The position numbers and the translations under genes were made by a program. From the NCBI GenBank assembly GCA_016194375.1, contig JACQBU010000040.1, positions 1 through 36,508 of the forward strand: a DNA stretch of 36,508 nucleotides, written 5' to 3'. This DNA comes from Nitrospinota bacterium (GTDB taxonomy: Bacteria > Nitrospinota_A > UBA7883 > JACRGQ01). Positions within the stretch are counted from its first letter, which is position 1, and every line of letters starts with the position of its first letter. The notes beneath the pieces were generated by a model. That model searched no databases. It was not told the origin of the DNA and worked only from the letters and a program-made list of their open reading frames with translations. This document shows, one piece after another, positions 22,534 to 30,016 of the stretch.

Positions 22534-22734
22534 GTGAAACTACTTATCCATATAGAACAGGACGAGGACGGATATTTTGTCGCGGAAGTGCCCGCCCTGC
22601 CTGGTTGTTTGTCGCAAGGCAAAACAAAGGAAGAGGCCGCCTTAAACATCAAGGAGGCGATTGAAGTCTGGCTTGAATCGATGGAATCCAAGAAAAAATA
22701 CCCCAAGGACGAATTGGTCGAGGTGGTAGTTTGA
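22534..22734 (+). CDS. hicB: HicB family antitoxin
   Basis: Antitoxin of a type II toxin-antitoxin pair, neutralising the HicA RNase. The 66-residue protein is the partial RNase H-like HicB fold: DEDGYFVAEVPALPGCLSQG (12-31), then EEAALNIKEAIEVWLE. It lacks the extra C-terminal DNA-binding helix-turn-helix or ribbon-helix-helix found in longer HicB proteins, so autoregulation would need the fold alone or another factor. It starts at GTG with a TAGGAG ribosome binding site. The gene order is antitoxin first, with hicA beginning on the base after its stop. Confidence 0.93.
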   Translation: MKLLIHIEQDEDGYFVAEVPALPGCLSQGKTKEEAALNIKEAIEVWLESMESKKKYPKDELVEVVV

Positions 22735-22953
22735 ATGGGAGGATTGAGACTTTGCTCCGGCTCCGAGGCCGTCAAGAAATTCTTGAAGGCCGGTTGGTTC
22801 GTTGAGAGACAAAAAGGCTCGCATGTCGTTATGGAAAAATACGGGCATGAACACAACCTCTCGATTCCGCAACATTCGGAATTGGGCCGAGGGCTCCTCC
22901 ACAAGTTAATCAAACAGGCAAATCTCTCGGTCGACGAGTTTAACGACCTATGA
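22735..22953 (+). CDS. hicA: HicA family mRNA interferase toxin
   Basis: A 72-residue double-stranded RNA-binding-like toxin that cleaves mRNA. Motifs are SGSEAVKKFLKAGWFVERQ, then KGSH with the catalytic His30, and ISIPQH-type SIPQHSELGRGLLHKLIKQA. The ATG follows the hicB stop directly, so expression is coupled. The pair sits just after tRNA-Asn, a common landing place for mobile modules, though no flanking duplication was seen. Confidence 0.93.
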   Translation: MGGLRLCSGSEAVKKFLKAGWFVERQKGSHVVMEKYGHEHNLSIPQHSELGRGLLHKLIKQANLSVDEFNDL

Positions 22954-23355: not shown

Positions 23356-23781
23356 GTGCCCGTGAAAATCCTTTTTCTGTGCGTGGCAAACTCCGCCAGA
23401 AGCCAGATGGCCGAAGGGCTGGCCCGCGACCTGTTCGGCGGCGAGGCGGAGATAATGAGCGCGGGGAGCCGCCCGACGGCGCTGAACCCGACCGCAGTAA
23501 AGGTGATGGACGAGGCGGGAATAGACATTTCCGGCCAGTCCTCGAAGTCGGTTGATTCCCTATCCGCGTCTTTTCTGGAAAATCTCGACGCGGTGATAAC
23601 CCTTTGCGCCGACGAGGTCTGCCCCGTGCTCCCGACGCCCGTAAAAAAGCTCCACTGGTCGTTTCCGGATCCGGCGGGGGTCAAGGGTTCCGACGAGGAG
23701 GTTTTAGCCGCCTTTCGGCATGTCAGGGACGGCATTCGCAACAGGCTGGTTGAATTCGGCGCGAAACGCGCGCTTCTTTAG
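23356..23781 (+). CDS. arsC: ArsC-type arsenate reductase / low-MW tyrosine phosphatase fold protein
   Basis: A 141-residue protein of the thioredoxin-coupled arsenate reductase family, which shares the low-molecular-weight tyrosine phosphatase fold. The P-loop is Cys9-VANSARS with MAEG following. The further redox cysteines are Cys84 and Cys89 ([11 protein letters not shown]), as in the three-cysteine ArsC mechanism, and the WSFPDPAG segment carries the general-acid Asp. No arsR or arsenite transporter is nearby, so an arsenate role is likely by family but unsupported by context. GTG 23356 or 23362 may start it. It converges with the SAP protein, 5 bp apart. Confidence 0.85.
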
Positions 23782-23786
23782 GAAAA

Positions 23787-23999
23787 CTAGTCCCTTTGAC
23801 ACTCGATTATCCAGCGACATTTTTTTTCTGAACAGATTGAGTCGAGCTTAAAACAGGCGGTTGTTCCCTGCGCGAGCTGTATCGTCCTAATCAGGTCGTC
23901 CTTCCTGTAAAATTTCTCTAGCGACAGGATTCCATGGACCGCCGCGATCTCCCTGATTTCTCCCATCGTCAGCTCCTCTCCCGAGATATTCATCACCAT
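23787..23999 (-). CDS. SAP/Rho-N-like small protein with C-terminal cysteines
   Basis: A 70-residue protein. The N-terminal part MGEIREIAAVHGILSLEKF-type helices followed by KDDLIRTIQLAQG match the SAP/Rho N-terminal mini-domain, usually nucleic-acid binding. The C terminus has ACFKLDSICSEKKCRW...C, a pattern of cysteines typical of a widespread small family with this arrangement. Function is unknown. ATG 23999 is preferred over longer starts because GGAGGG lies just upstream; ATG 23993 is possible. Confidence 0.75.
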   Translation of the reverse strand: MVMNISGEELTMGEIREIAAVHGILSLEKFYRKDDLIRTIQLAQGTTACFKLDSICSEKKCRWIIECQRD

Positions 24000-24180
24000 T
24001 TCACGCCCTCCATCGTAAAATTTTGACACGATTAAAGTCTTATCGGGAAAAAGGAGCGCGAACTTAAATTCGCCTGGCCGATTCCCTGCAAGACACGACC
24101 AATCATATTCTCATCGGGTTATAATATTATTAAAATATGGTTGGCGCAAGGTTAAAAAACGGGGCGGACGAAAAAAACGG
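24000..24180. other. Intergenic region upstream of the SAP gene
   Basis: No gene seen. On the minus strand TTGCGC and TATTAT are spaced by 17 bases around 24114-24142, giving a possible promoter with a leader of roughly 120 bases. That leader holds a small hairpin GCGAA...TTCGC near 24057-24072. Confidence 0.35.
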
Positions 24181-24576
24181 TCAGCTGTTTTTGTCGGGGG
24201 AAAGCGCCTCCTTGACGGCCCGCATCGCCTTTTCAATCCGCTTCAGGTCGCCGCGCCGCCCTTTTTCGGGCTTGACGGCCAGCCGTTCCAAAATCGAGGT
24301 CGCCTTTGCAAGGTCGGGTTTTTTGTTTTTCTTCCGGCCCCCCTTGGCGGGGGCGGTGGTTATCAGCTCGACGGCCTCTATAACGTCGCGCTCGATGTTT
24401 GACGATATCGTTCGGCAGAGCGCCTTGCTCGTCAACCGCAGGTTGTTCAAGTAGCTCCGCAGGTCCTTCGCCTTGCCGGACAGCGCCGGTTTGGCGGGGG
24501 TTTTAGGTTTGGACTGCGCCGGTTTGGCTGGGATTTTAGGTGTTGGCACTTCCGCCGGAGTTTCGTTGATAGTCAT
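24181..24576 (-). CDS. Lys/Pro/Ala-rich basic protein of the polyphosphate operon
   Basis: A 131-residue protein I do not recognise as a named family. Residues 1-35 are a low-complexity KIPAKPAQSKPKTPAKP-type tail, resembling histone H1-like AKP repeats. The rest is a basic, helical segment (LRSYLNNLRLTSKALCRTISSNIERDVIEAVELI, then GGRKKNKKP and a final KR-rich helix). No signal peptide or membrane segment. It is the last gene of the ppx operon, its ATG overlapping the preceding stop (ATGA). Its charge fits binding to polyphosphate or nucleic acid, which is inference. Confidence 0.7.
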   Translation of the reverse strand: MTINETPAEVPTPKIPAKPAQSKPKTPAKPALSGKAKDLRSYLNNLRLTSKALCRTISSNIERDVIEAVELITTAPAKGGRKKNKKPDLAKATSILERLAVKPEKGRRGDLKRIEKAMRAVKEALSPDKNS

Positions 24577-25322
24577 TCCGTTTTTTCCTCGTTTTCAACG
24601 GCGGTCGCGGGCGCCGCGGCGGCGGGCGGGGGCAGGGCGTGCAAAATCTCGCCGATTCTGGCCTGCAATTCGTTCGTGATGGTGCGCTGAAGCCTGTTTC
24701 CGTTTATTATCTGAAAACCGTACGCGCCCTGCATCGAGTTGAACGTGTGTTGAAGGCGCGTCTGGTAGTTGATGAAACATTCGTACATGTCCCCGGAGCG
24801 CCTGATGTCCATCCCCGACTCCCAATAGTCCAACACGAGGTTTTTGCGGAGCGTCCTCTCGGCCAGAACCTTGGGCGGCACCTGGATGTAAAACACCGCG
24901 TCGGGCACGAGGGCGATCCCGTAAACCCCCCTTATCCATTCCGGGTCGGAGCCGCGCACTATTTCCCGCGCCATCAGGGTGTAGATGTACCTGTCGGCAA
25001 GCACTATGAAGCCGGAGCGAAGGGCCGGGATGATGCGGTTTTCGAGCTGGTCCGCGAAATCCGTGGCGTAGAAAAGGCAATGGGTGATGGAGCTCATTAT
25101 GTTCCCCCGCTTGGCCCTTTCAAGCTCCTCCCCGACCAGCGTGGAGCGCCTCAGCCCGACCGTCAGCGTCGGGTAGCCTATCCGCTCCAGCCAGTCGCTC
25201 AAAAGGCGTATTTGGGTGGAGCGGCCGGAGCCGTCCGACCCCTCGATGACTATCAGCCTCCCTTTTAGGCCGCTGACGTCGACGTCCGGCAGGCCCCGTC
25301 CGAAAAACCGGTCCGCGCTCAT
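24573..25322 (-). CDS. Thymidylate-kinase-fold protein B with Walker A lysine replaced
   Basis: A 249-residue P-loop kinase-fold protein, paralogous to the gene upstream. The P-loop reads GSDGSGRST, so the invariant Walker A Lys is Arg (codon CGC). It keeps the ADRY motif, HCLFYATDFADQLENRI, ARE-V-RGSDPEWIR and PDAVFYIQVP, which align with its sister. It lacks the TMP-binding sequence of housekeeping Tmk (no REPGGT-like loop). An Ala/Pro-rich tail ends it. ATG 25322 overlaps the upstream stop (ATGA) with GGAGG eight bases before, so the longer GTG 25337 start is less likely. It may be a pseudokinase or a binding partner of its sister. Confidence 0.83.
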   Translation of the reverse strand: MSADRFFGRGLPDVDVSGLKGRLIVIEGSDGSGRSTQIRLLSDWLERIGYPTLTVGLRRSTLVGEELERAKRGNIMSSITHCLFYATDFADQLENRIIPALRSGFIVLADRYIYTLMAREIVRGSDPEWIRGVYGIALVPDAVFYIQVPPKVLAERTLRKNLVLDYWESGMDIRRSGDMYECFINYQTRLQHTFNSMQGAYGFQIINGNRLQRTITNELQARIGEILHALPPPAAAAPATAVENEEKTE

Positions 25323-26011
25323 TTCCTGTCCCTCCACTTGAACCTGGGCAGGTCTATTTTCTGTCGGATGATGTTCCTTAGTTTTTCCTGTTGCACGTTC
25401 GGAGGCTCGCTTCCGTTGACCATCGTGAAGTTGAATTCCACCGCCATGTTCAGGTATTCCTCGTATATCCGGCTTTGAAAGAGCCTGAAGCTTTCCTCCG
25501 GGTCGGTCGAAAGCCCCAGGTCAAGCCCGGCCTCGTGATATTTTAGCTCTGGGCGGCCCCCGAGTATGCGGCTCACGGCCGTCTCCACCGGCACTTTGAA
25601 AAAGAACGTTATGTCCGGCTGGATGACGAAGCTGTACATCTCCCTAAGCCACGACGGATCGCACCCCCGCACGGCGTCGCGGGCGAAGGCGGTGAACATG
25701 AAACGGTCCGCCAGGACGATGAAGCCGGCGCGCATCAGGGGAAGAATCTGCCGCTCGTACCTGTCGGCGAAATCGGTGCAATGAATCAGCGAAAAGGTCG
25801 TGGGGGTCAGCAGTTTGCGCTTTTTCCCCTTTCGCGTGGCCTCCTTCACGAGGTCGGACGAGTTCCACTCGGTGAACGCGACCTTGAACCCCTCCAGCTC
25901 GAGCCAGCGTTTGACGAGGTATATCTGCGTAGATTTCCCCGAGCCGTCGAGCCCCTCGACGGCGATGAGCTTTCCCGGAGTCTCTTTTAAAGGCTGTTTA
26001 CGCGGCGTCAT
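25319..26011 (-). CDS. Thymidylate-kinase-fold protein A
   Basis: A 230-residue P-loop kinase-fold protein with intact Walker A GLDGSGKST and the ADRF motif. It diverges from housekeeping Tmk: the dTMP-binding REPGGT region is replaced by TEWNSSDLVKEA, and a distinctive TPTTFSLIHCTDFADRYERQI helix follows. LKYHEAGLDLGLSTDPEESF is another family stretch. It likely phosphorylates a nucleotide or other phosphoacceptor, but the substrate is not evident. ATG 26011 lies 11 bases after the ppx stop with GGGTGGG upstream; a longer GTG start would intrude into ppx. It sits between ppx and its degenerate paralogue. Confidence 0.85.
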   Translation of the reverse strand: MTPRKQPLKETPGKLIAVEGLDGSGKSTQIYLVKRWLELEGFKVAFTEWNSSDLVKEATRKGKKRKLLTPTTFSLIHCTDFADRYERQILPLMRAGFIVLADRFMFTAFARDAVRGCDPSWLREMYSFVIQPDITFFFKVPVETAVSRILGGRPELKYHEAGLDLGLSTDPEESFRLFQSRIYEEYLNMAVEFNFTMVNGSEPPNVQQEKLRNIIRQKIDLPRFKWRDRK

Positions 26012-26022
26012 ACTGCCCACCC

Positions 26023-27531
26023 CTACTCTATCACCAGCTTCAATTGGTAAAATTCCTCGAACAAGTCGCACTTCTTGGCGAGCTTCCACTTTTCAATCAA
26101 CATGTCCCCGTTTCCCCGGAGCCTTAGGACCGCCTTTGTCTTGGACAGGTCGAGCGTAAACCCGGTCACAAGCCCGTCGTGTTCCGTGTCCATGGCGTCG
26201 GCCAGCCTCAGCAACGCGGCGAGTTTCAACGTTATCATCCGCGACTTGGGCTGGAGGTCCGCGTAACCCTCGTGACGGACGTTCGGAGTCGCCATCCTAT
26301 GATAGCGGGCGACGTTGGCCACGATAGCCTGTTGGTTCCTGTCCAGCCCTACTATCGGCGTGTTCGAGAGCAGATAGAACGTGTGCTTGTGGTGCCTTGA
26401 AACCCCGATGAACGAGCCGACGTCGTGCAAAATGGCGGCGACTTCCAGCAAGACCCGGTGTTCCGGGCCGAGTTTGTGTAGTTCCTTCGTCGCGTCAAAA
26501 AGCGCGCCGGAAAGTTTTAGGACGGTTTCCCCGTGGGCCTCGTCGTAGGAGTATTTACGGCCCATGTGCCGCGCCGAATCAAGCGCCTGTTCCAGGGCCG
26601 TCCCGTCGCCGCCCGCGTAAAGCCCGGCCCAGATGTCCAACAACAACCCCTCCCGCACCCCGACGCACGGAACCAATATTTCGTCCACCTCCGCCAGCTT
26701 TGCTATTCGCAGGAGGACTATGGCGGCGGGCAGGATGACGTCCGCCCTGTCCGGGCGAAGCCCCATCCCGCGTATCCGGTCCTCGTACGAGGTGGCCTGA
26801 AGCTTCTTGACGAGGGCGCCGAGGTTTTCGACCGAGACGACGTCGTTTTTGTCCGCGCCGAGCGTCTCCCGGCACAACTCCCCGAGCGACTCGATGTTTC
26901 CGCCCGTGCCGGCGCAGACGTCGATCTTCTGGGAGCCTATCTCCTTCTTTAGGTCCTTTTTCAGGCCGCCGACGTATTCCTGCACCATCTGGCCAAACTC
27001 GCGCTCGTCCTGTTTTTTCCCTTTTAGCGCGCACAGCAGTCTCACGGAGCCGAGGTCGAAACCGGCGGTGGATATCATCCTGCCGTTTTTCGCGAGCGTC
27101 AGCTCGACGCTCCCGCCCCCGACGTCCACCAAGAGGGCGAGCTTCTGGCCCAGCTTGACCTTGTCCTTTACGGCGAGGTGGACGAGGCGGGCTTCCTCCG
27201 CCCCCCCGATCACGTTTATTTCCATGCCGACCTTTTTTCCGACCGCCCCCACGAACTGGACGCGGTTCGTCGCCTCGCGCAACGCGCTTGTGGCCACGAC
27301 CTTCGAGACGACCACCCCGTACCGGTTCATGACCCCCTTGAAGCGCTCGAGCGCCTTTATGGCTTGGTCGGCCAGTTTTTCGGATATGGAGCCCTGCGAA
27401 AACACGTCCTGCCCCAGACGAACCGGCTCGCGCGCCCGTTCGACGACGTCCGGCCCCTTTTTCTGGTCCACGTTCGCCACGATCAGGCGCATCGCGTTGG
27501 AACCGATGTCAATTCCGGCTATGGCGGGCAT
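26023..27531 (-). CDS. ppx: Ppx/GppA exopolyphosphatase with C-terminal HD domain
   Basis: Cytoplasmic phosphatase that releases phosphate from polyphosphate chains and/or hydrolyses pppGpp. The 502 residues follow the full-length plan. The ASKHA-fold N-terminal half has GIDIGSNAMRLIVA (6-19) and the second phosphate loop LVDVGGGSVEL (about 134-144). The C-terminal HD-like half has ILHDVGSFIGVSRHHKHT. It heads an operon with two kinase-fold genes and a basic protein. Start ATG 27531 has GGAAGG upstream. The promoter region contains a Pho-box-like array, suggesting phosphate control. Confidence 0.93.
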   Translation of the reverse strand: MPAIAGIDIGSNAMRLIVANVDQKKGPDVVERAREPVRLGQDVFSQGSISEKLADQAIKALERFKGVMNRYGVVVSKVVATSALREATNRVQFVGAVGKKVGMEINVIGGAEEARLVHLAVKDKVKLGQKLALLVDVGGGSVELTLAKNGRMISTAGFDLGSVRLLCALKGKKQDEREFGQMVQEYVGGLKKDLKKEIGSQKIDVCAGTGGNIESLGELCRETLGADKNDVVSVENLGALVKKLQATSYEDRIRGMGLRPDRADVILPAAIVLLRIAKLAEVDEILVPCVGVREGLLLDIWAGLYAGGDGTALEQALDSARHMGRKYSYDEAHGETVLKLSGALFDATKELHKLGPEHRVLLEVAAILHDVGSFIGVSRHHKHTFYLLSNTPIVGLDRNQQAIVANVARYHRMATPNVRHEGYADLQPKSRMITLKLAALLRLADAMDTEHDGLVTGFTLDLSKTKAVLRLRGNGDMLIEKWKLAKKCDLFEEFYQLKLVIE

Positions 27532-27587: not shown

Positions 27588-27649
27588 ATTATAATATGAA
27601 GCATGGTTAAACGATAGTTAAGGCGGCGTTGGCGGACGGTTAAAATCGG
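27588..27649 (-). promoter_or_regulatory. Pho-box-like operator and -10 of the ppx operon
   Basis: Reading toward ppx, TTAAC-like cores occur at exact 11-bp steps: plus-strand GTTAA at 27606, 27617 and 27639, with a degenerate GTTGG at 27628. A perfect TATAAT (27588-27593) follows 11 bases after the last core, with no normal -35. Eleven-bp direct repeats of TTAAC type are the binding pattern of PhoP/PhoB-family response regulators. The array also lies 32 bases upstream of the CHAD gene's -10 on the other strand. Confidence 0.6.
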
Positions 27650-27680
27650 GCGCGGCCCGGCATTTGTCGCCGCTTTTGTG

Positions 27681-27686
27681 GATAAT
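27681..27686 (+). promoter_or_regulatory. -10 box close to the CHAD gene start
   Basis: GATAAT six bases before GTG 27693. If used, GTG 27693 is the translation start and the mRNA is leaderless. If GTG 27678 is the start instead, this sequence is simply codons 2-3. Confidence 0.4.
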
Positions 27687-27692
27687 GGAGCC

Positions 27693-28472
27693 GTGAAGCG
27701 AGATTCAAAAAAAATTAAGCTTAAACGAAACGCCGAAATAACCCCTTTTGTTTCCGCGCAGGCGGCCTTGTTGCGGAAACTGATAAAAAAAACAAAGGCA
27801 AAGCCCGCGACGGGAAGAGTCCACGATTTGAGGGTGTGCGTCAGAAGGCTGAGGACGGCCCTGTGGCTCGCCGGCCACGACAAGAAAATCCCGCGCCTTG
27901 GCGCCCTGTCCGGGTCGTTGCGGAACCTTGGAAAAATTCTTGGCGGACTTCGCCAGCTCGACGTCGCGATCGCCGACGCCAAATTTTACCGCCTGCCGGT
28001 CGGCGATTTAAAGGTCCGCCGAAAAGAGGCGCGCAAGGAGGCGGACGCCGCGTTGGCGCCAAAACTGGGCGCCGCTCTTTATAAGAAATTAGGGCGGCTT
28101 GTTCGCGTCTTAAACGAACGCGGCGGCGGGCCGTTAAAAGGCGCCTCAAAACTTCTCGGGCGCGTAAAAACGCTCAAGGGCCCGTCCCCGGCGCCCGGCG
28201 CGAAGGGGGAGTTCCATCTGTTTAGGATTTTCATGAAAAAAGTCCGCTATACCATCGAGGCGTTCGGTCTTAAACCGGGCCCGATAAAAACGCTCCACGA
28301 CCAACTTGGAAAAGCACACGATCTGGAGGTTCTTCAACGGCTGGTCGGAAAAAACGGAGCCGTCCTAAAAGACGAAATCCTGTTTCGAAAACGGGCGGCA
28401 AAAATTGCGGGACCCGCAGTGCGGCTCGCGCGCGGGCGGCTGGCCGCCATAGCTGACGCGCGCAAAAAATAA
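27693..28472 (+). CDS. CHAD domain protein (polyphosphate-binding fold)
   Basis: A 259-residue all-helical CHAD protein. CHAD domains bind inorganic polyphosphate through conserved Lys/Arg/His and locate to polyphosphate granules. The family blocks are VHDLRVCVRRLRTALW (about 39-54), LGKILGGLRQLDV, FHLFRIFMKKVRYTIEAF and LHDQLGKAHDLEVL. The usual RDxDV is altered to RQLDV. The protein is extremely rich in Lys and Arg. It is divergent from ppx and shares its control region. No CYTH domain is fused, unlike many CHAD proteins. GTG 27678 is an alternative start. Confidence 0.88.
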   Translation: MKRDSKKIKLKRNAEITPFVSAQAALLRKLIKKTKAKPATGRVHDLRVCVRRLRTALWLAGHDKKIPRLGALSGSLRNLGKILGGLRQLDVAIADAKFYRLPVGDLKVRRKEARKEADAALAPKLGAALYKKLGRLVRVLNERGGGPLKGASKLLGRVKTLKGPSPAPGAKGEFHLFRIFMKKVRYTIEAFGLKPGPIKTLHDQLGKAHDLEVLQRLVGKNGAVLKDEILFRKRAAKIAGPAVRLARGRLAAIADARKK

Positions 28473-28544: not shown

Positions 28545-29147
28545 TCACTGGCCGAACTCGGTCAACAGGCCGTCCGCCTCGTCGGTCCTTTCTATCTCAT
28601 AGCTCGCGGTGGAAAGGACCCTCGGGGATTTGAGGTCAATCAGCCGGGCGTTGATGATGACCGTTTTGGAGGTTGCGATGTACGTTCCCGCCAGGACCGC
28701 CATGGCGTTGGTGGCTTTCGTCAAGTCGGCGGCGTCGCGCGTCAGTATGAATTCCCCGCCGTCCCTCCTGACAAAAATGTCCTGCGATTTCCTGAACTCG
28801 ACGACGTGAAACCCCTGCCTGGACATCTCGTCTATCATCTTTTCGGCCATCATCCGGCCGAAAACGGAGGTCTTGCCGAGGTCGTTTAGGTCCACGAACG
28901 TCGTTATTACTATCGGCATGCCGGACATTTTTGGCTTGGGCATGTTGGCGGCTATGGTCACCCCCACGTAGCGGGCGCCGAACCTGTCCGGGTTGAGCCT
29001 TGGCTGGTTTTCTCCGGAGTCGTTTTGAAGCTGGCTCGCGGCGGGGACGGAAAACACGTCCGCGCTCCCCTGCGGGCCGCCGTACCCGAGCAGGGAGCAG
29101 GAGGAGGCGGCTACAAGGATTGAAAAAACGGCAGTCAACCGCCTCAT
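28545..29147 (-). CDS. FlgO-domain lipoprotein
   Basis: A 200-residue envelope protein. The signal peptide ends in a lipobox-like AASSC (Cys17), predicting lipidation. The FlgO-type domain shows PIVITTFVDLNDLGKTSVFGR, then AEKMIDEMSRQGFHVVEFR, and the GEFILTRDAADL stretch. FlgO is an outer-membrane lipoprotein tied to flagella in Vibrio, but the domain is also found outside flagellar loci. It follows a second FlgO-domain gene by a four-base overlap and ends before a minus-strand terminator. No flagellar genes flank it. Confidence 0.82.
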   Translation of the reverse strand: MRRLTAVFSILVAASSCSLLGYGGPQGSADVFSVPAASQLQNDSGENQPRLNPDRFGARYVGVTIAANMPKPKMSGMPIVITTFVDLNDLGKTSVFGRMMAEKMIDEMSRQGFHVVEFRKSQDIFVRRDGGEFILTRDAADLTKATNAMAVLAGTYIATSKTVIINARLIDLKSPRVLSTASYEIERTDEADGLLTEFGQ

Positions 29148-30016
29148 CTCCCCTTCCCGACCTTTCCCGCCGTCGAATCCGCGCGGCCGGCCGGGTTGTC
29201 CAGCAATTCCCGCATGAAGGCGTCCTCCTTGTCCATGACGATGTCGAACGACGCGGCCGCCATGATTTTTTTGGTCGGGCGCGAGACTATCTCCGCGTGC
29301 ACTTCCAAAACGTCCCCGGCCTTCTTGTACGTGCCGGTTAATATCGTGTTGCCGGTGTGCGAAGCGATTTCGCCGGGCCGCGCGGCAAGAATCGGCGTCC
29401 CGGTTCCCGGCTCGGCCGTCGCCATGTCGGCAAGGCGGTGCTCGACCACCCCGAACCCGAGTTTGTGCATCTTTTCCATAAGCTCCTCGGCCATGTACCT
29501 CCCGAAGGAGCCGGATCCGTTCGTCCCGTCCGAATCCGAAAAAGTTGCGACGAGCAGGTCCGAACCCGCGTCATTGAGGTTTTTAGCCAGCGCGTCGGCA
29601 AGCTCGCTTATCTTGAACGCGAGCAGTTCCCCCGGCCTCGACCTAAGGGGGGCGGTCGGGCGAATCCGCACCAGTTCGGACCGGGGGCGGTCCTCGACGT
29701 CCATCTCGCGTAGCCGTAGTTCCTCGGCCTTCACCCGTTCCAATTCATCCAGCCGTATTCCGCGCTCCTCAGCCTCGGCCTTGGCCAATTCCTCGGCCTG
29801 CGCCTTTTCCAACGCGGCGACCCTGGCCTGTTCGATTTCTTCCGGCGTGGGCTCCTTTCGTTGTTCCCCGCCGGCAGGCGCGGCAAAACTCTGCCCCGAA
29901 TCGGCGGGCTTGGTTGAATCCCCAAGTTTTTGCAACTCCTCCCCGCGAACGGTTTGGGCGGCGATGCCGACAAACAACGCCGCGATTACTGCGCAACCCA
30001 TTGATATGCTTCTCAT
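29144..30016 (-). CDS. Exported FlgO-domain protein with coiled-coil linker
   Basis: A 290-residue protein with a signal peptide (to about VRGE, residue 26), a Glu/Ala/Arg-rich region at about 52-108 likely to form a coiled coil (repeated EEIEQ..., KAQAEELAKAEAEE), and a C-terminal FlgO-like domain. The latter reads ISELADALAKNL, then DLLVATFSDSDG and SFGRYMAEELMEKMHKLGF. It overlaps the lipoprotein gene downstream, so the two FlgO domains are probably partners. The mRNA leader holds a hairpin directly before its GGGAAGGGAG ribosome binding site. Confidence 0.8.
   Translation of the reverse strand: MRSISMGCAVIAALFVGIAAQTVRGEELQKLGDSTKPADSGQSFAAPAGGEQRKEPTPEEIEQARVAALEKAQAEELAKAEAEERGIRLDELERVKAEELRLREMDVEDRPRSELVRIRPTAPLRSRPGELLAFKISELADALAKNLNDAGSDLLVATFSDSDGTNGSGSFGRYMAEELMEKMHKLGFGVVEHRLADMATAEPGTGTPILAARPGEIASHTGNTILTGTYKKAGDVLEVHAEIVSRPTKKIMAAASFDIVMDKEDAFMRELLDNPAGRADSTAGKVGKGR

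Follow-up and report, generated by a model that had tools for sequence, protein, structure and literature searches.

The PhoP box of Bacillus consists of TT(A/C/T)ACA repeats at 11 bp. In E. coli, the Pho box follows a rule of 8-bp repeats with a 3-bp linker, placed 10 bp upstream of a -10 element TAN3T/A (PMC1906773); the units GTCAT, GTCAT, TACAT and GTCAC recur at 11 bp upstream of pstS, with TATTTT 10 nt further, and at phoA two units are followed by TATAGT, also 10 nt further. The cyanobacterial SphR Pho box is built from the unit CTTAACCT, again 8 bp plus 3 bp (PMC1906773), and the Pho box consensus is known to vary between species (PMC4415409). An exopolyphosphatase gene can belong to such a regulon: BF2646 of Bacteroides fragilis is PhoB-dependent (+42.1 under phosphate limitation; PMC3547664).

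The window analysed here, by which we mean the whole stretch of 36,508 nucleotides (36.5 kb) from a Nitrospinota bacterium (genome G000), contains an array of this kind upstream of ppx, at 27606-27643 on the minus strand. Read directly on that strand from 27643 to 27606, it runs TTAACcgtccg, CCAACgccgcc, TTAACtatcgt and TTAAC(C), and then TATAAT follows; the four cores lie at 27643-27639, 27632-27628, 27621-27617 and 27610-27606 (on the plus strand, GTTAA at 27606, 27617 and 27639, and GTTGG at 27628), and their spacing is exactly 11 bp. The array points at ppx, whose gene start is at 27531, and the -10 hexamer TATAAT (27588-27593, minus strand) lies 12 nt from the last TTAAC core, that is, 11 bases after TTAACC. 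There is no separate -35 hexamer in this promoter; the array sits in the -35 position. The first-pass annotation had given the same cores, the same exact phase and the same stand-in for a -35, and direct reading bears all of this out. Its TTAAC-type repeat holds for the cores, three of the four units being perfect and the second (CCAAC) departing from the consensus, but was drawn too strictly: judged from the sequences, what repeats is [GT]T[AC]A[CT], which lines up in register with GTCAT of E. coli. An exact TTAAC-N6-TTAAC pattern, set at the wrong strictness, was dropped; it has six matches in the genome, only that at ppx being at a recognisable phosphate gene.

The Bacillus box, by its description, has a TTAAC-like core at 11 bp as here, with a Gram-positive regulator. 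The E. coli Pho box is alike in its 11-bp direct repeats, its [GT]T[AC]A[CT] register, the four units at pstS and the recognition helix of PhoB (see below), and unlike in its GTCAT-type rather than TTAAC-type unit and in the gap to the -10, which is 12 nt at our ppx. The cyanobacterial SphR box shares the TTAAC core and the 11-bp period, as the first-pass annotation had said of cyanobacterial Pho boxes, and has at least three units (PMC1906773); its lineage and regulator are different. Going by sequence likeness, the element is a Pho box whose unit is of the TTAAC type, a new example of an already well-known kind.

We consider it very probable that PhoB acts on this array as its operator (Pho box), switching on ppx and the genes that follow when phosphate is scarce, and that the same operator stands in front of pstS and a porin gene. 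The repeats might instead have arisen by chance in an AT-rich intergenic stretch: the intergenic DNA is TTAA-rich, TTAA-N7-TTAA taken alone is weak evidence (2 seen against 0.34 expected), and a degenerate pattern by itself yields chance matches; at two mismatches, some three to four background matches per genome are to be reckoned with, and in G000 control matches are almost as numerous as real ones (6 against 4). A coincidence of this sort is nevertheless extremely improbable given how the array scores. An 11-column unit matrix was trained on the pstS upstream arrays of seven genomes (G000's own pstS included, ppx excluded) and scanned over the window, over 4 Mb of random DNA with 59% GC and over 206 kb of loci selected for their protein families. 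In the window the ppx array scores highest, at 23.7 bits, above all 200 dinucleotide shuffles of the window (maximum score 2.6 +/- 3.9, largest 17.0 bits), and the random DNA contained nothing above 18 bits. In the 206 kb, chosen by family and not by motif, scores above 18 bits fell at only four kinds of site: the pstS arrays, the array of a Na/Pi-cotransporter gene in G002, the upstream region of pstS in G003, and a second array of the window, described below. A period test in the window with a broader matrix gave 26.9 and 24.7 bits at 11 bp, 19.5 bits at 10 bp, and 5.3 bits or less at 9, 12 and 13 bp. Chance is also opposed by the conservation of the array in three genomes and its recurrence at other genes, as set out below. 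When the pstS arrays alone were put into a fully position-specific model (R2), a genome-wide search with it missed the ppx array; because of this, and because the degenerate pattern is noisy, the significance of the array is carried jointly by the unit matrix, by conservation and by gene context. A further model (R1) had ppx, pstS and the second array in its training set, and only its other matches are counted as evidence.

Similar arrays stand at other phosphate genes of the family. They are found upstream of pstS in seven genomes, G000 and six relatives (G001, G004, G005, G006, G008 and G010), upstream of genes for Porin_O_P (phosphate-selective porin) proteins in G000 and G006, and upstream of a Na_Pi_cotrans-PhoU gene in G002, the last being a blind match of the pstS-only model (E = 1.7e-5). 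Arrays at a Porin_4 gene in G001 (E about 0.01) and a MIP channel gene in G005 (E about 0.1) are weak by themselves. A TANNNT -10 hexamer follows the last core by exactly 10 nt in 13 of the 16 arrays compared, counting for pstS of G000 the hexamer TAGTCT, which was the script's second choice; it follows at 11 or 12 nt in the remainder. This 10-nt distance is that of E. coli pstS and phoA. Polyphosphate kinase genes were sought as possible targets too: PPK1 (PF02503) was not detected in G000, G001 or G006, and PPK2 was found in G000 and G001 and not detected in G006, with no array above 18 bits at the two PPK2 loci (L172 and L173). For an uncultured family this makes a Pho regulon readable: the matrix is usable, the promoter geometry is nearly fixed, and the predicted targets are pst, porin, Na/Pi transport and ppx genes.

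Close orthologues of Ppx occur in two of the 59 relatives searched (G001 and G006, 67% and 58% identical), and in both a four-unit array lies upstream of ppx and points to it, the third unit being degenerate in G006. More distant ppx loci (for example that of G030, 38%) have no array upstream. In G000 the array is flanked by ppx on one side and on the other by a divergent gene (27678-28472, plus strand) for a CHAD-domain, polyphosphate-binding protein (PF05235, 3.1e-17). From this position a real PhoB operator could repress ppx, or could mainly serve the CHAD gene; we think either most unlikely, since the orientation of the array and its distance from the -10 toward ppx fit the activating layout of E. 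coli, and G001 and G006 keep the array without a CHAD neighbour. Upstream of ppx, G001 has a gene for a hybrid kinase/response regulator and G006 an unrelated one; because this neighbour differs, the CHAD gene is not tied to the array. The first-pass annotation had read the array as a Pho-like operator and looked to conservation upstream of ppx and to similar arrays at pst, pho and ppk promoters. The ppx arrays are present in both orthologues despite the changing neighbour, and other arrays were found at pstS, at Porin_O_P genes and at the Na/Pi-cotransporter-PhoU gene. The pst part of that expectation stands; for the ppk part, no PPK1 gene to bear the box was detected. The presence of the same operator in front of phosphate-uptake genes indicates that the Pho reading was right, and the regulator genes of G000 lend it further support.

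G000 has one detected Trans_reg_C (OmpR/PhoB-type) protein, and its gene adjoins phoU, in the order pstB-phoU-phoB-phoR. Its best NCBIfam match is PhoB (TIGR02154) at 258.7 bits, below the equivalog cut-off of 296.2; the kinase, whose match is to PnpS/PhoR, likewise stays below its cut-off, and PhoU and PstB are above theirs. The recognition helix of this PhoB (RTVDVHIRRLR), together with T217 and R219, is identical to that of E. coli PhoB; the E. coli helix is here paired with units of the TTAAC type. Another OmpR-family regulator, for example of the CtrA type, might occupy the array and make its control independent of phosphate: the CtrA motif given in the literature is TTAA-N7-TTAA (PMC11264516), which two units of the array form literally, at 27607-27621. 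Such a site has very little probability in our view, since the PhoU-linked PhoB is the sole Trans_reg_C protein detected in the genome and scores 258.7 bits as PhoB against 145.5 bits as CtrA, no CtrA orthologue being found in G000, and since the arrays have four units rather than two and lie at phosphate genes. As G000 is ~94% complete, a further regulator could be missing from it.

We infer PhoB binding, activation (not repression) by it, phosphate as the signal, and co-transcription of the operon. When phosphate is low, PhoR would phosphorylate PhoB, which would bind the four 11-bp units head-to-tail, where a -35 element would otherwise stand, and recruit RNA polymerase to the -10. This would switch on ppx and the following genes, and stored polyphosphate would be broken down to phosphate; ppx is thus probably activated under phosphate limitation. 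The same operator would drive the phosphate-selective porin and pstS, and behind pstS probably the whole pst-phoU-phoB-phoR cluster. The pst genes of G000 are divided between two contig ends, and this last step follows the layout of G001, where a single contig has pstS, phoU and phoB in this order on the same strand. The G001 order suggests that phoB too, the gene of the regulator itself, is probably expressed under the pstS array.

The first gene of the putative operon, ppx (26023-27531, minus strand), encodes a 502-aa exopolyphosphatase of the Ppx/GppA type with domain III (PF02541, 1.5e-44; PF21447, 5.8e-26), with TIGR03706 as its best NCBIfam match, below that family's cut-off. Two genes for thymidylate-kinase-like proteins (both PF02223) follow on the same strand, A at 25319-26011, which is below the dTMP-kinase equivalog cut-off, and B at 24573-25337; the last gene (24181-24576, minus strand) encodes a 131-aa protein whose homologues in G001 and G006 occupy the same position. 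The pair behind ppx is conserved in G001, G006 and G030; in G030, which is outside this phylum, the pair is 63% and 59% identical and Ppx only 38-39%. A separate dTMP kinase above cut-off is present in each of G000, G001 and G006, and the two thymidylate-kinase-like proteins are not the housekeeping enzyme. A neighbourhood of PPX, dTMP kinase and CHAD is named in a figure legend of a study of biomining archaea (PMC10892726). Any role of the pair in polyphosphate use is a guess. BF2646 of B. fragilis shares with our ppx an exopolyphosphatase product and, on our reading, membership of a Pho regulon, but it adjoins the polyphosphate kinase gene BF2645, whereas here no PPK1 was detected in the three genomes and ppx is paired with the thymidylate-kinase-like genes. 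It is conceivable, if rather doubtful, that the Pho-controlled operon is a new type of module for polyphosphate use, in which Ppx and two non-housekeeping thymidylate-kinase-like proteins, maybe transferring phosphate between polyphosphate and nucleotides, serve a lineage that lacks a detectable PPK1. The apparent link of this conserved operon of ppx and twin thymidylate-kinase-like genes to phosphate starvation makes the role of the kinases testable.

The second Pho-box-like array of the window lies behind this operon, at 24112-24155 on the minus strand (TTAACcttgcg, CCAACcatatt, TTAATaatatt and ATAACccgatg, from 24155 to 24112). It is the next-best match of the window with the pstS-only unit matrix (22.2 bits), and R1, whose training set contained it, also matched it genome-wide; its -10 hexamer TATGAT (24102-24107, minus strand) is exactly 10 nt past the last core. 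Downstream is a gene for an 80-aa protein (23787-24029, minus strand) with a weak similarity to Rho_N (E=0.034, below cut-off). Homologues of this protein occur in nine of the ten family members searched and are multi-copy in the family; the other copies of the gene that were fetched have no array. Convergent with the 80-aa gene is one for a 141-aa protein (23356-23781, plus strand) which by eye resembles low-molecular-weight phosphatases/arsenate reductases, and at 22534-22953 (plus strand), near a tRNA-Asn gene, two adjacent small ORFs, 66 aa and 72 aa long, resemble a HicB/HicA toxin-antitoxin pair when judged by eye. On the other side of ppx, at 28545-30016 (minus strand), FlgO-domain proteins are encoded, two side by side. 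Elsewhere in G000, the loci L001 and L006 (contigs C17 and C131) contain spurious ORFs that have recurring phrases in common, THNLVCT and RRGDP among them, which suggests a dispersed DNA repeat in this genome.
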